Of a stretch of DNA of 64,000 nucleotides, positions 48,034-54,059 are shown piece after piece (position 1 is the stretch's first letter; the number at the start of each line of letters is the position of its first letter). The translations under genes and the position numbers were made by a program. The stretch is taken from assembly GCF_964222135.1 (NCBI RefSeq), contig NZ_CAXQBR010000004.1, forward strand, positions 1 to 64,000. The letters are read 5' to 3'. Source of the DNA: Euzebya sp. (GTDB lineage Bacteria; Actinomycetota; Nitriliruptoria; Euzebyales; Euzebyaceae). Under the pieces are notes generated by a model, which ran no database searches, was not told the origin of the DNA, and was given only the letters and a program-made list of their open reading frames with translations.

Positions 48034-48144
48034 GACGGTGGCACTCCTTCACAGGCAGGTGTCCCAACCGGTTCTACCGCGCCCGCCGCCGGCGCATGCG
48101 TGCCCGGTCGGCGCCCCGAGGCGGACCGGACTGGAGGAGCTGTG

Positions 48145-48155: not shown

Positions 48156-51100
48156 ATGAGCCACCGCAGTCAGCTCTCCCTCGTCCTGCTCGTCCTGCTC
48201 GTCGCCGGGGTGCTCCCCGCCACCGCGCAGGGGGGTGGACGGTTCCCCTCGGACGACCCCGACCCGCGGGTTGGCACGCCCGACGACCCGGAGTTCGACT
48301 GCTCCGAGCCGGACGACGAGGATGACGTCGACCCCTGCCCGTCGATCTACGACGAGCAGTACGGGCTGTTCGGCTTCGCGCCGGCCTCGACGCAGCTGAC
48401 CGCGCGCTACCGCACCGGCCCGGATGCCGGCCAGCCGATGGTGTCCGGCGTGTCGGCGGACCTTGCCTGGAAGACCACGACCGGGGACCCCCTCGTGACC
48501 ATCGCGATCCTCGACACCGGCGTCCGCTGGGGCGACGAGCGGATCCGCACCAAGATCTGGCTCAACGCGGCCGAGCTGCCCCGGCCCCAGGGCAGCGGTA
48601 CCCACGACGCCGACGGCGACGGCGTGGTGACCGTCGACGACTGGGCGGACGACAGCCGGGTCGCGGATGCCAACGACAACGGCCTGCTCGACGGCCAGGA
48701 CCTCATCCGCGCGTTCAGCGACGGCGTCGACGACGACGCCAACGGCTACGTCGACGACATCGCCGGCTGGGACTTCTTCGACGACGACAACGACCCCTCC
48801 GACGACTCGTCCTACTCAGCCGCGGGCGGGCACGGGACCGGCCGGGCGCGGGAGGCGGCCGAGCAGACCGACGACGGCATCGCCAGCGCCGGAGTCTGCC
48901 CCGAGTGCCGGGTGATGATGCTGCGCGAGTGGGACTCCTTCGTCGTCCCCGGCGACAACTACGCCGCGGCGACGGTCTACGCCGCCGACAACGACGCCCT
49001 CGTCCAGGTCGTCGCCAACGGCGTGCTGACCAACTCCGCGTCCGCCCGCGAGGCGGCCAGCTACGCCGCGGACCGCGGGATGGCGCTGATGCACGTCTCG
49101 AGCGACCTCAACACCTCCAACCACAACTACCCGACGAACTACCGCGAGAGCATCTTCATCAACGGGTGCGTCCCCGACACCGTCGGGCTGGGCACCGAGA
49201 TCCCCGGTCTGCAGCCGATCGTCGACGGGCTGGGGGTCATCGACTCCCAGGTCCCGCCCACGACGTTCTTCCGCCAGTCGAACCTGACCCAGCACGGCGA
49301 GCACGCGGCGGTGTGCTTCATGGCCGTCACCGGGTCCGAGGCCACCGGGCAGGCCGGCGGCGCGGCGGGCCTGCTGCACTCGAGGGCGATCGAGGTCTTC
49401 GGCGAGCCGCTGACCTCCGACGAGGTCAAGCAGCTGCTCACGATGACGGCCGAGGACGTGCTGGCGGCGAACACCCTCGGCATCGGGACCGCCGATCCGG
49501 CTCAGGAGGGGTTCGACGTCCACTTCGGCTACGGCCGCGCCGACCTCGCCGCCGCCGTCGCCCGCGTCGCGGCGGGCCAGGTCCCGCCCGAGGCGTGGAT
49601 CGACGACCCGGCGTGGTGGACCCTCGTCGACCCGGTCGCGACCCCGACCCTCGAGGTCGCCGGGCACGTCGCCGCGGACCGAGCCGACGGCTGGACCGCC
49701 GAGCTGCAGTGGGCGCCCGGCAACGAGCCGGCGGAGGGGGACTTCACCACCGTCGCCACCCTGGACGGCGATGCCGCCCACGACGGGGTCCTCGGCACCA
49801 TCGACATGGCCGACGTCGCCGCCGCGACGCCGGGGTCGGCCGACGGCACCCCGCCGGCCAGCCCCACCGACCGCCTGTTCACCGTGCGGCTGGTCGCCAC
49901 GGATGCCGACGGCAACCGCGGTGAGGACCGCAAGGCCTACTTCGCCCACCACGACCCCTCGACCCACGAGGGGTGGCCGCGGTTCACCGACACCGGCGGC
50001 GAGACGTCGCTCGTGTTCGCCGACCTCGACGGCGACGGCACCCAGGAGGTCATCGACGCCGACTCCTCGGGCTGGCTGACGGTCACGAGCCACACCGGCC
50101 AGCCGCACGCGCGGTTCAACGGCGGTCGGCCGTTCCAGCTGCCACCGGCGTTCTACCACCACCCCGAGGTCCCGGCCTTCGCGAGCGGCGCGGTGCCCGC
50201 CGTGACGAGCGGCTGGCGCACCCCGGCTGTCGCGGACCTGGACGGTGACCTGTCACCCGACATCGTCGCGACGACCTGGGATGGGCGGCTGTACGCCATC
50301 GATGCCCGCGGGCGGGTGCTCGACGGCTTCCCGGTGTCGGTGGATCCCGACCTGTCGGCCGACCCGACCGAGGCGGACCACCGCAAGCGCGGCTTCCTCG
50401 CCGCCCCGACCATCGCCGACCTCGACGGCGACGGCGCCCGCGAGGTCGTCGCGGCCGCCCTCGACGGGCACCTCTACGCGTGGCAGGCCGACGGCACCCC
50501 GCGGGACGGCTTCCCGGTGCGGCTGGCGGACCCGGACGAGCCCGAGTTCTCCGGCGGCGAGCTGATCGCCACGCCCGCCGTCGGCGACGTCGACGGCGAT
50601 GGCGACCTCGAGATCGTGTCCGGGTCCTCAGAGGTCTACGGCGCCACCACCGGCGCCCCCGGGGGGATCGAGGAGGCCGTCACCGGGCTGGTGACCAACC
50701 TGGTCGCCGGACTGGCGGGCGGCTCCACGCGGCTGTACGTCGTCGAGGACGACGGCACGTTCGCCGACGGCTGGCCCGTCGCCGTCAACGCGATCCTGCC
50801 AGACATCCTCCCGCTCGTCGGCCCGCAGCACGTCCCCGCACTGGCCGACGTCGACGGCGACGGCGACGACGAGATCGCCTACTCGGTGACCGCCGGGGAC
50901 CTGTCGCTGTACGACGGCGACGGCTCGGTGATCCGCAGCTACTCAGACGAGCTGCCCGCATCGGCGGTACCGCCTGCGCGCCCGGAGGGCGCGACCCTTC
51001 CGGTGACGCTGAACCTGGTCGAGTACCCCTCGATCGGCGACCTCGACGGCGACGGCGGGCACGACATCGTCAAGGGAGGGGTCGGGGCGACCCAGGCGGT

Positions 51101-52748
51101 CAACCTGGTCCTCACCGGCCAGAACCTGCCGTACGAGCACCTGGTCCAGGCCTGGTCGATGGACGCCGCCCCCTACCGCCCCGGGTTCCCCGCGGCGATC
51201 GACGACTACCAGCTGCTGAGCGCCCCCGCGATCGCCGACGTCGACGGTGAGGCCGGCGCCGAGGTGCTGGCCACCTCGGGGCTGTACCTGCTGCGCGCCT
51301 ACGACGCCTCGGGTGCCGAGGTCGCCGGGTTCCCCAAGCTGACCGGGGGCTGGACCATCGGGACCCCCGCCGTCGGGGACCCCGACGGCGACGGGTTGGT
51401 CGAGATCGCCGTCGGCACCCGCGAGGGCTGGCGGCTGATGTGGGACACCGACACGCCGGCCGAGCAGCTCGACTGGACCACCGAGTCCCACGACGCCTGC
51501 CACACCGCCAACGCCGGCACCGACTGCACCCCGCCGGCGCGGGTGACCGACCTGTCGCTCGAGGACGGGGCGGTGACGTGGACGCCGACCGGCGACGACG
51601 GGCGGTTGGGCGAGGCCGCCACCTACGAGGTCCGCGCGGCCGACCGGCCGATACGCACCTTCGCGGACTGGCAGGCCGCCGACGTGGTCGCCACGGACGT
51701 CGCCGCAGGTGATGCGGGGGCCGGCGTGGCGGTGCCCGCCGACGTCGCCCACGTCGCGGTGGTCGCCCGGGACGACGCCGGCAACGCCTCGACCATCGCC
51801 GCCACGGGTGTCGCCGAGGTGACCCGCCTCGCCGGCGACGACCGGATCGAGACGGCCGTGGCGGTGTCACAGGCGACGTACGAGTCCGCCGACACCGTCG
51901 TGATCGCCCGCGCCGACGTGTACGCCGACGCCCTCGCCGGCGCGCCGCTCGCCGTCCGCGAAGAGGCGCCGCTCCTGCTCAGCCACCCCGACGTCCTGCC
52001 GGCGGCCACCGCCTCCGAGCTCGACCGGCTGGGCGCGGGCACCGCGGTCCTGCTCGGCGGCGAGGCGGCCCTGTCCGGCGAGGTGGCGGACGACCTGACC
52101 GCGCGGGGCATCACCGTCGAGCGGGTCGCCGGCCCCACCCGGTTCCACACCGCCGCGGCGATCGCCGAGGCGTTCGACCCCGCAGGCGAGGCGCTCCTCG
52201 TCGAGGGGATCCACGCCGACCCGGCGCGTGGCTGGCCCGACGCCCTGGCCGCCTCCGCCCTGGGCGGAATCGCCGACGTGCCGATCCTGCTGACCGCCGC
52301 CGACGCCCTGCCGGACGTGACCGCCGAGGCGCTCACCGGCCGGGCGGCGGTGACGATCATCGGCGGCGAGGTCGCCGTCGCGCCGGCGGTCGCCGATGCG
52401 GCCGGGGACGCCGCCGGCGTCTCGCCGACCCGGATCGCGGGGCTGACCCGCTTCGAGACCGCCCGGGCGGTGGCCGAGGAGGCCCTCGACCGCGGCGCGA
52501 CGCCCGAGGCGGTGTGGCTCGCGACCGGCGCGGCGTTCCCCGACGGCCTGGTCGCCGGCGCCGCCGCCGCGGCCACGGACGGGGTCCTGCTGCTCGTCGA
52601 CCCGATCTCGCTGCCGCCGGAGGCACCCGCCGCGGCGTTCCGCGCCGCGCACGCCGACGAGGTCGCCCGCGTGCTCGTCGCGGGCGGGACGGCCGCGGTG
52701 TCCGACGCGGTGCTCGAGGCCGCGACGGCGATCCTGGGCGGGGGGTGA
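48156..52748 (+). CDS. Secreted subtilase with VCBS-type repeats and three CWB2 cell-wall repeats
   Basis: Surface protein of 1530 residues. Signal peptide: residues 1-28 (hydrophobic core LSLVLLVLLVAGVL, cleavage near ATAQG). S8 peptidase domain about 95-470: Asp about 120 (AILDTGVRW), His about 226 (GGHGTGRA), Ser about 394 (TGSEATG). An acidic insert with EF-hand-like calcium loops (DADGDGVVTVDD, DANDNGLLDGQD) lies between Asp and His. The usual oxyanion Asn is Asp about 317 (SSDLN). About 618-1090: eight FG-GAP/VCBS-like repeats (ADLDGDGAREVVAAALDGH pattern), likely a beta-propeller. A fibronectin-like stretch follows, then three CWB2 repeats from about 1221 (RLAGDDRIETAVAVSQ, RVAGPTRFHTAAAIAE, RIAGLTRFETARAVAEE). 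CWB2 repeats hold proteins to wall polymers. Substrate unknown. The ATG is set by the signal peptide. Confidence 0.92.
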   Translation: MSHRSQLSLVLLVLLVAGVLPATAQGGGRFPSDDPDPRVGTPDDPEFDCSEPDDEDDVDPCPSIYDEQYGLFGFAPASTQLTARYRTGPDAGQPMVSGVSADLAWKTTTGDPLVTIAILDTGVRWGDERIRTKIWLNAAELPRPQGSGTHDADGDGVVTVDDWADDSRVADANDNGLLDGQDLIRAFSDGVDDDANGYVDDIAGWDFFDDDNDPSDDSSYSAAGGHGTGRAREAAEQTDDGIASAGVCPECRVMMLREWDSFVVPGDNYAAATVYAADNDALVQVVANGVLTNSASAREAASYAADRGMALMHVSSDLNTSNHNYPTNYRESIFINGCVPDTVGLGTEIPGLQPIVDGLGVIDSQVPPTTFFRQSNLTQHGEHAAVCFMAVTGSEATGQAGGAAGLLHSRAIEVFGEPLTSDEVKQLLTMTAEDVLAANTLGIGTADPAQEGFDVHFGYGRADLAAAVARVAAGQVPPEAWIDDPAWWTLVDPVATPTLEVAGHVAADRADGWTAELQWAPGNEPAEGDFTTVATLDGDAAHDGVLGTIDMADVAAATPGSADGTPPASPTDRLFTVRLVATDADGNRGEDRKAYFAHHDPSTHEGWPRFTDTGGETSLVFADLDGDGTQEVIDADSSGWLTVTSHTGQPHARFNGGRPFQLPPAFYHHPEVPAFASGAVPAVTSGWRTPAVADLDGDLSPDIVATTWDGRLYAIDARGRVLDGFPVSVDPDLSADPTEADHRKRGFLAAPTIADLDGDGAREVVAAALDGHLYAWQADGTPRDGFPVRLADPDEPEFSGGELIATPAVGDVDGDGDLEIVSGSSEVYGATTGAPGGIEEAVTGLVTNLVAGLAGGSTRLYVVEDDGTFADGWPVAVNAILPDILPLVGPQHVPALADVDGDGDDEIAYSVTAGDLSLYDGDGSVIRSYSDELPASAVPPARPEGATLPVTLNLVEYPSIGDLDGDGGHDIVKGGVGATQAVNLVLTGQNLPYEHLVQAWSMDAAPYRPGFPAAIDDYQLLSAPAIADVDGEAGAEVLATSGLYLLRAYDASGAEVAGFPKLTGGWTIGTPAVGDPDGDGLVEIAVGTREGWRLMWDTDTPAEQLDWTTESHDACHTANAGTDCTPPARVTDLSLEDGAVTWTPTGDDGRLGEAATYEVRAADRPIRTFADWQAADVVATDVAAGDAGAGVAVPADVAHVAVVARDDAGNASTIAATGVAEVTRLAGDDRIETAVAVSQATYESADTVVIARADVYADALAGAPLAVREEAPLLLSHPDVLPAATASELDRLGAGTAVLLGGEAALSGEVADDLTARGITVERVAGPTRFHTAAAIAEAFDPAGEALLVEGIHADPARGWPDALAASALGGIADVPILLTAADALPDVTAEALTGRAAVTIIGGEVAVAPAVADAAGDAAGVSPTRIAGLTRFETARAVAEEALDRGATPEAVWLATGAAFPDGLVAGAAAAATDGVLLLVDPISLPPEAPAAAFRAAHADEVARVLVAGGTAAVSDAVLEAATAILGGG

Positions 52749-52787: not shown

Positions 52788-54059
52788 GTGGAGGGGGTGC
52801 AGACGGCACCCCACGCGATCACCGCGCCGGTCACCGTCGCCAGGCTGCTCTCCAAGGGGAGGATCCGGGCGGTGTACCAACCCGTCGTGCGCCTGGACGA
52901 CCGGTCCGTGGTGGGCTACGAGGCGCTCATGCGCGGACCCGAGGGGTCGCCGCTCGAGTCGGCGCGCGCGCTCATGGAGGCCGCCGAGGCGGAGGGCCTG
53001 ACCGAGGAGCTCGGCCGAGCGGCTGTCGCCGCGGCGATCGACGGCGCCAGCGAGGCCGGGCTCGGCGCCACCCACACCGTCTTCCTGAACATCCGGGCGA
53101 AGACCCTCACCACCCGCCTGCGCGACGACGCGGTCATCGAGCGCGCGGGGAACCGGCTGCGGCTCGTCTGGGAGTTCGTCGAGCGCACCCTGCTCGAGGA
53201 CCCCGCCGGGCTGCTCGCCGCCGTCGAGAGCTACCGCGAGCGCTACTGGGGGGTCGCCCTCGATCACGTCGGCACCGACAACGCCGCCGCCCTGGCGCTG
53301 CTGCCGTTCGTGCGGCCCGACGTGATCAAGCTCGACCTCGGCCTGATCCAGCGGAAGTCGACCCGCGACATCGGCCGGGTCGTCGCGGCCGTCGCCGAGC
53401 ACGTCGAGCTCAACGGCGGCGAGATCGTGGCCATGGGTGTCGAGACCGAAGCGCACCTGGAGCGCGCCCTCACCCTGGGCGCCACCCTCGGCCAGGGGTG
53501 GCTCTTCGGTCGGCCAGACGTCCTCCCGACCGAGGTGCCCCGCCCCACCGGCACCGTCCCGCTCATCGTCGCCCCGACCGCCCAGCAGCCCTCCACCCCG
53601 TTCGACCTGGTCGCCGCGGGCCGGTCGGACGTGCGGATCGCCACCAAGTCGACGCTGCTCGGCCTGTCGAAGTTCATCGAGGGCCAGTCCGACCTGTCCG
53701 ACCACCGCTACATCCTGCTGTCGACGTTCCAGCACGTCCGGAACTTCACGATCCGCACCCGCGCCCGGTACGCCCGCCATGCGGCCGCCTGCGCCCTGAC
53801 CGGCATCTTCGGCGTCGGGGTCCCGACCCGACCGGGCGGCGCCACCGTCGGGGTGCCGCTCAGCTCCGACGACCCGCTCGCCCGGGAGTGGACCGTCATC
53901 TGCATCGGCCCGCACTACTCCGCCGCCCTGATCAGCCGCGACCTGGGCGACCGCGGTGACGACAGCCGCCGCCGCTTCGAGTTCGTCCTCACCCACGACC
54001 GCAGCGCGGTCGTCGCGGCCGCCCGGAGCCTGATGGCCCGCATCGCCCGCCAGGCCTGA
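52788..54059 (+). CDS. EAL-domain protein with C-terminal DICT sensory domain
   Basis: Cytosolic protein of 423 residues. Residues about 15-245 form an EAL domain: YEALMRG (Glu45), FLNI (Asn101), WEFVERT, IKLDLG (Lys181) and GATLGQGWLFGRP. Two normally conserved sites differ: the DDFGTG loop reads LDHVGTDN (second Asp replaced by His160), and the AEGVE loop reads AMGVE. Cyclic-di-GMP hydrolysis may be reduced or lost, leaving a binding role. Residues about 270-420 match the DICT domain, a small-molecule or light-sensing module found with diguanylate cyclases and two-component proteins (ILLSTFQHVRNFTIRTRARY). GTG at 52788 is the likeliest start. Confidence 0.85.
   Translation: MEGVQTAPHAITAPVTVARLLSKGRIRAVYQPVVRLDDRSVVGYEALMRGPEGSPLESARALMEAAEAEGLTEELGRAAVAAAIDGASEAGLGATHTVFLNIRAKTLTTRLRDDAVIERAGNRLRLVWEFVERTLLEDPAGLLAAVESYRERYWGVALDHVGTDNAAALALLPFVRPDVIKLDLGLIQRKSTRDIGRVVAAVAEHVELNGGEIVAMGVETEAHLERALTLGATLGQGWLFGRPDVLPTEVPRPTGTVPLIVAPTAQQPSTPFDLVAAGRSDVRIATKSTLLGLSKFIEGQSDLSDHRYILLSTFQHVRNFTIRTRARYARHAAACALTGIFGVGVPTRPGGATVGVPLSSDDPLAREWTVICIGPHYSAALISRDLGDRGDDSRRRFEFVLTHDRSAVVAAARSLMARIARQA

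Follow-up and report, generated by a model that had tools for sequence, protein, structure and literature searches.

A complete open reading frame of 1530 amino acids lies on the plus strand of the 64,000-nucleotide stretch of Euzebya sp. DNA analyzed here (the window), running from an ATG at position 48156 to a stop codon at 52748. The mechanically called ORF begins at 48096, but a clean signal-peptide-like N-terminus results only from the ATG at 48156. The features assigned to the gene are as follows.

48156..52748, plus strand: complete coding sequence with signal peptide, N-terminal segment, S8-like domain, beta domain, propeller, beta domain, and three CWB2 repeats
48156..48230, plus strand: signal-peptide-like N-terminus, MSHRSQLSLVLLVLLVAGVLPATAQ, from direct sequence reading; relatives have the same kind of start
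48231..48443, plus strand: Cys-containing conserved N-terminal segment of ~70 amino acids, FPS.DPDPR..TPNDP.FD..EPDDED, where an I9 propeptide would usually stand
48495..49535, plus strand: divergent Peptidase_S8 domain, Pfam residues 114-460
48513..48515, plus strand: D120, catalytic acid (Asp32 position)
48600..48794, plus strand: Asp-rich EF-hand/dockerin-like insert, DADGDGVVTVDDW ... DGVDDDANGYVDDIAGWDFFDDDN, with putative Ca2+ sites
48831..48833, plus strand: H226, catalytic base (His64 position), with GHGTGRA in place of GHGTHVAG
48897..48908, plus strand: CPEC motif (C248 and C251), foreign to canonical S8; C248 is present in 108/109 relatives
49104..49106, plus strand: D317 at the oxyanion (Asn155) position, SSDLN context
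49329..49352, plus strand: nucleophile motif TGSEATGQ with S394 (Ser221), Gly393 for Thr220, and Gly398 for Pro225
49584..49946, plus strand: conserved all-beta domain linking protease and propeller, IPPEA.I..P.W..., modeled as Ig/jelly-roll-like
49953..51449, plus strand: eight-bladed FG-GAP-like beta propeller, residues about 600-1098
51546..51767, plus strand: second small beta domain (fn3-like) preceding the anchor, from the secondary structure of the model only
51825..52745, plus strand: three CWB2 cell-wall-binding repeats

Domain architecture and predicted fold

The S8 (PF00082) profile matched the protease domain with 48.3 bits against a cut-off of 21.8, FG-GAP_3 matched five stretches with 57.4 bits, and CW_binding_2 (PF04122) matched three tandem stretches at the C-terminus with 147.2 bits. 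I9-type propeptides are usual in secreted S8 members, and Pfam gave no I9 match in the 1530-residue protein.

The AlphaFold2 model of the S8 domain, built with a 25-sequence alignment, had a pTM of 0.79 and a mean pLDDT of 72.7. Its best structural matches were subtilases, with deseasin MCP-01 (3vv3) at Z 27.2 (rmsd 3.5 over 280) and thermitase at Z 25.9 (rmsd 2.6 over 241), and the domain is predicted to adopt the subtilisin fold; in the model Ser394 lies at the start of a long helix, as Ser221 does. A second model, covering residues 27-1205, had a pTM of 0.82. The propeller region best matched the designed 8-bladed Cake8 (Z 37.4, rmsd 2.0 over 318 residues) and also matched BamB (Z about 31-32). 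Eight DxDGDG-type motifs were counted in the protein, and FG-GAP propellers are expected to have 7 or 8 blades with DxDGDG calcium loops. The protein thus resembles FG-GAP/VCBS propeller proteins in its eight-bladed propeller and DxDGDG loops, with the difference that here the propeller is joined to an S8 domain via the conserved beta domain. The eight FG-GAP-like and three CWB2 repeats proposed in the initial annotation were both recovered.

Active site and its conservation in the family

Alignment with thermitase placed the triad at D120, H226, and S394, with the Asp-His-Ser identity expected of S8. D317 stood opposite the thermitase oxyanion Asn without a gap (AAGNAGNTAPNYP versus VSSDLNTSNHNYP), and again when a profile of 25 relatives was used; the usual S8 oxyanion Asn, which is not strictly required (PC2), is thus replaced by Asp. 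A misalignment of this position was ruled out, since the profile alignment confirms the single-sequence one and the NYP anchor is gap-free. The AlphaFold2 pLDDT is about 44-49 around the oxyanion loop, so the residue was assigned from the sequence alignments. S394 stood opposite the nucleophile with two residues inserted ahead of it, and its motif reads TGSEATGQAGG versus GTSMAAPHVAG, without the usual GTSMAxP signature. Further changes affect Thr220 (Gly393), Pro225 (Gly398), and Ser125 (Ala287). S8 paralogues from the same genome with readable motifs have the normal Asn and GTS[MF][AS][AST]P or a close form. The triad, the oxyanion Asp in SSDLN context, and the EATGQAGG stretch after Ser had all been read correctly in the initial annotation. 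Neither outcome that it named as refuting, a normal oxyanion Asn or a C-terminus lacking CWB2, was obtained.

In known subtilisin-like structures, Thr220 contacts Asn155 and holds it in place, and for the Ser125 position a published structure analysis lists Asn and Ser/Thr as the only types (PMC11593635). The clade described below fits neither type, which suggests that the oxyanion zone was remodeled as a whole.

Relatives of the S8 domain were found in other genomes at 39-83% identity, so the features of this gene are not due to chance. A scan of genome contigs gave 30 loci, of which 26 were close relatives from Actinomycetota, Chloroflexota, Myxococcota, and a few single MAGs, whose contigs may be misbinned. 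Members were present in 25/396 genomes of the window organism's phylum and in 25/299 genomes of the class of G091. For the phylum that includes the Chloroflexota record the count was 3/251, and for that of the Myxococcota record G408 it was 96/235, or 41% of those sampled. More than one paralogue of the family occurs in several genomes (L101; L091 and L097 in G241; G542).

The final set comprised 109 rows after identical domains, short pieces, and one canonical row (Asn and GTS) were dropped; because the filter removes only one sequence, the family-wide Asp count is not a product of selection. The oxyanion Asp was present in 106/109 rows, His in 106/109, an acid (D/E) in 102/103, and a hydroxyl nucleophile (S/T) in 106/108, and the calcium-loop residues D151, D162, D192, D194, and D201 were kept at about 98% or more family-wide. 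In a whole-domain tree, a quick build without bootstrap and with some long branches, the family separated from six canonical S8 outgroup rows with a support of 99, and type A, to which the window's gene belongs, formed one clade of 32 rows, also with a support of 99. Where covered, type A rows kept D120 (31/31), H226 (32/32), and S394 (31/31); D317 was found in 32/32, a count that is partly circular because the type A label is defined by the SSDLN/GDDLN motif. Type A also has Gly at Thr220 (31/31), Gly, Ser, or Ala at Pro225 (31/31), and Ala at Ser125 (32/32).

The other subfamilies vary this site. In type B (44 rows), the triad and Asp are as in type A and the motif is CSSxATG-like. The 18 rows of type M come from the Myxococcota sample and have a Thr nucleophile in a CATG motif, with His, the acid, and the oxyanion Asp kept; Thr-nucleophile rows are L124, L125, and some among L157-L182. 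Type E (11 rows: L136, L137, L141, L143-L147, L151, L153, and L154) has Glu for the acid, within YIEGGVNY, in the six rows readable there, and its oxyanion stretch contains SND. Four degraded rows all belong to one actinobacterial family (f19): L092 and L093 are without His and the oxyanion Asp, L093 also without the nucleophile hydroxyl; L087 is without acid, base, and nucleophile; and L085 keeps the triad with Val at the oxyanion position.

Judged from these alignments, the oxyanion Asp is an inherited trait of a large clade that spans several bacterial phyla, and the one-off oddity implied by the initial annotation gives way to a clade trait. Local decay of a single gene was ruled out, as the changes are common to relatives. 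Compared with the copy in a second genome of the genus (G001), the S8 domain had a dN of 0.12 and a dS of 0.41, and no other module of the protein was as well conserved; the domain is under purifying selection. The family is apparently undescribed: no paper on it was found in the openly accessible literature (S8 with FG-GAP, Thermoleophilia), and the FG-GAP case in a 2008 survey is a trypsin (PMC2605481).

Putative wall anchor, distribution, and gene neighborhood

The genome of the window (G000, 5 Mb) holds at least 160 CWB2 matches, an unusually large wall-protein repertoire for an actinobacterium, and at least four more S8 reading frames in it carry CWB2 (matched by contig, position, and frame length). 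Relatives end differently: Pfam found RTX in L060 and TSP3 in L042, and by eye L051 has an LPxTG-like end and L061 a short Gly/Cys-rich hydrophobic MYXO-CTERM-like one. These differing tails indicate that the C-terminus varies by lineage around a constant protease-propeller core, and their variety suggests a protein held at or near the surface. The CWB2 tail is therefore a local, lineage-specific choice and not a notable invention. The combination of subtilase, propeller, and CWB2, singled out in the initial annotation, loses its novelty in this comparison, because S8-propeller is the family's normal architecture and CWB2 tails are nothing unusual in this genome. The wall anchor proposed in that annotation is supported by homology: the three tandem repeats are like those of Clostridioides difficile wall proteins (SlpA, Cwp proteins), and in C. 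difficile the wall polymer PSII is bound by CWB2 repeats (PMC4973711). NCBIfam similarity to SlpA is confined to the CWB2 region, and the functional part of the present protein is unrelated.

Among four genomes of the genus, the gene is present in G000 and G001 and absent from G002 and G003. The G001 copy shares 78% identity over the core and has different flanking genes. In the window, an EAL-domain-like gene (by eye) occupies 52788-54059 on the same strand and begins 40 bases past the stop codon, an arrangement absent in G001. A plasmid origin found no support, as a tblastn search of a plasmid collection gave no match.

Beside type A genes, no conserved neighbor or substrate gene was found, except for type B genes in some lineages. 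The two adjoin on the same strand, B then A in Chloroflexota (L041 and L042) and A then B in L047, L052, and L101, which hints that they form a working pair. The pairs come from Chloroflexota and Thermoleophilia-like genomes. No type B member was found in the window's genome, and the search for a second family member there gave only a weak canonical S8 match (C55). Type B genes of family f19 (L104, L105, L110, L112, L116, and L118) have a conserved neighbor of their own, which by eye is B12-binding radical SAM-like.

Comparison with known enzymes and proposed function

With the S8 subtilases (MEROPS S8/PF00082, such as thermitase, AK.1 protease, and deseasin MCP-01), the protein shares the fold and the order and identity of the Asp-His-Ser triad, and calcium dependence is likely to be common as well. 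It differs by its oxyanion Asp, the altered Thr220, Pro225, and Ser125, and the altered HGTHVAG and GTSMAAP motifs, and it adds a CPxC motif and the EF-hand-like insert, with no I9 propeptide detected. Sedolisins (S53) also have an oxyanion Asp on a subtilisin fold, as D317 does here (PMC6278154), but their base is Glu, whereas H226 is found in all type A rows, with the Asp of subtilisins as the acid, which rules out a sedolisin identity. PC2 (PCSK2) likewise has an oxyanion Asp in a subtilase with an otherwise Ser-His-Asp triad (PMC4182778), whereas the present protein is bacterial, propeller-bearing, and putatively wall-anchored. Pfam found no match to the P domain typical of proprotein convertases (S8B), and a conserved beta domain without a family assignment stands at that place. 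The other motif changes of this protein are not known from PC2.

With modest confidence, we read the protein as a calcium-dependent surface peptidase whose weakened or acid-shifted oxyanion hole serves limited processing. Secreted, attached to the wall, putatively dependent on calcium, and belonging to a subtilase clade of its own, it would probably use the Ser394-His226-Asp120 triad for acyl-enzyme chemistry on peptide bonds, with an oxyanion hole rebuilt by Asp317 for Asn155, Gly393 for Thr220, and Gly398 for Pro225. An oxyanion carboxylate must be protonated to help. Asp317 would thus donate a stabilizing hydrogen bond only in its protonated form, and low general proteolysis, an acid-shifted optimum, or restricted substrates or self-processing would be expected. 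Presentation or capture of the substrate is the most likely role of the eight-bladed propeller, and attachment of the enzyme to the wall would fall to the CWB2 repeats.

Precedents show that an Asp at this site is compatible with catalysis, although they do not prove it here. PC2 is a working convertase with an oxyanion Asp, its Asp-to-Asn exchange causes no measurable change in activity, and the Asn-to-Asp exchange in Kex2 markedly lowers activity (PMC4182778); sedolisins have Asp at the oxyanion position (PMC6278154). Counting against a limited-processing peptidase are the Kex2 result, the loss of Thr220, the missing I9 match, the Thr-nucleophile and Glu-acid subfamilies, and the four relatives with lost site residues. 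The occurrence of Thr in one Myxococcota subfamily and Glu in another indicates that the site drifts between subfamilies.

The main rival, which we consider rather unlikely, is a pseudoprotease. In this reading the S8-like scaffold is dead, the propeller binds a ligand, and the protein serves as an adhesin or receptor anchored to the wall. In its favor, alteration or loss affects the oxyanion Asn, Thr220, Pro225, HGTHVAG, GTSMAAP, and propeptide alike, Ser-to-Thr subfamilies and fully degraded members exist, and bacterial pseudosubtilases with signaling roles are known, such as CspC (PMC6636752). However, the acid, base, and hydroxyl nucleophile (D/E, H, S/T) are kept in about 100 diverged relatives, which free drift would not achieve, and 3/4 of the degraded members lost at least two active-site residues together. 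Because this triad chemistry is kept, the sequence evidence leans toward a catalytic protein over a binding protein. Between the processing protease and the inactive binder offered in the initial annotation, the former is thus somewhat favored.

It is doubtful that the clade forms a separate catalytic line in which the oxyanion Asp and the loss of Thr220 and Pro225 serve a different reaction, either acid-switched processing or surface acyl transfer; the natural Glu-acid and Thr-nucleophile variants would then still be working enzymes. An ordinary secreted peptidase, with Asp and Asn interchangeable as in PC2 and no special chemistry, is improbable: the PC2 exchange described above speaks for a neutral change, but fixation of Asp in 106/109 relatives is not expected of a neutral site, and Thr220, Pro225, and Ser125 are altered together with Asn155. 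Least probable is an acyl-transfer enzyme for ligation or transpeptidation, for example joining surface proteins, in which a small residue at 225 and an altered oxyanion hole favor aminolysis: the small residue in all 31 type A rows covering position 225, the probable surface location, and the P225A change of subtiligase (PMC7921005) agree with it, but engineered ligases also need Cys at 221, where Ser stands here, there is no known acceptor or conserved substrate gene beside type A genes, and the PatG macrocyclase among the Foldseek matches ranked no higher than ordinary proteases, which is no evidence of function.

For the gene in the window, annotation as a plain "S8 peptidase" or as "inactive" would be premature. 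The share of sampled genomes with members in the phylum of G408 indicates that the role of the family is no rarity. The oxyanion Asn is a textbook helper of subtilisin catalysis, and a clade with a fixed Asp and a kept triad is a natural experiment on the role of this residue, in which subfamilies with a Glu acid or a Thr nucleophile make active, altered, and dead forms directly comparable.
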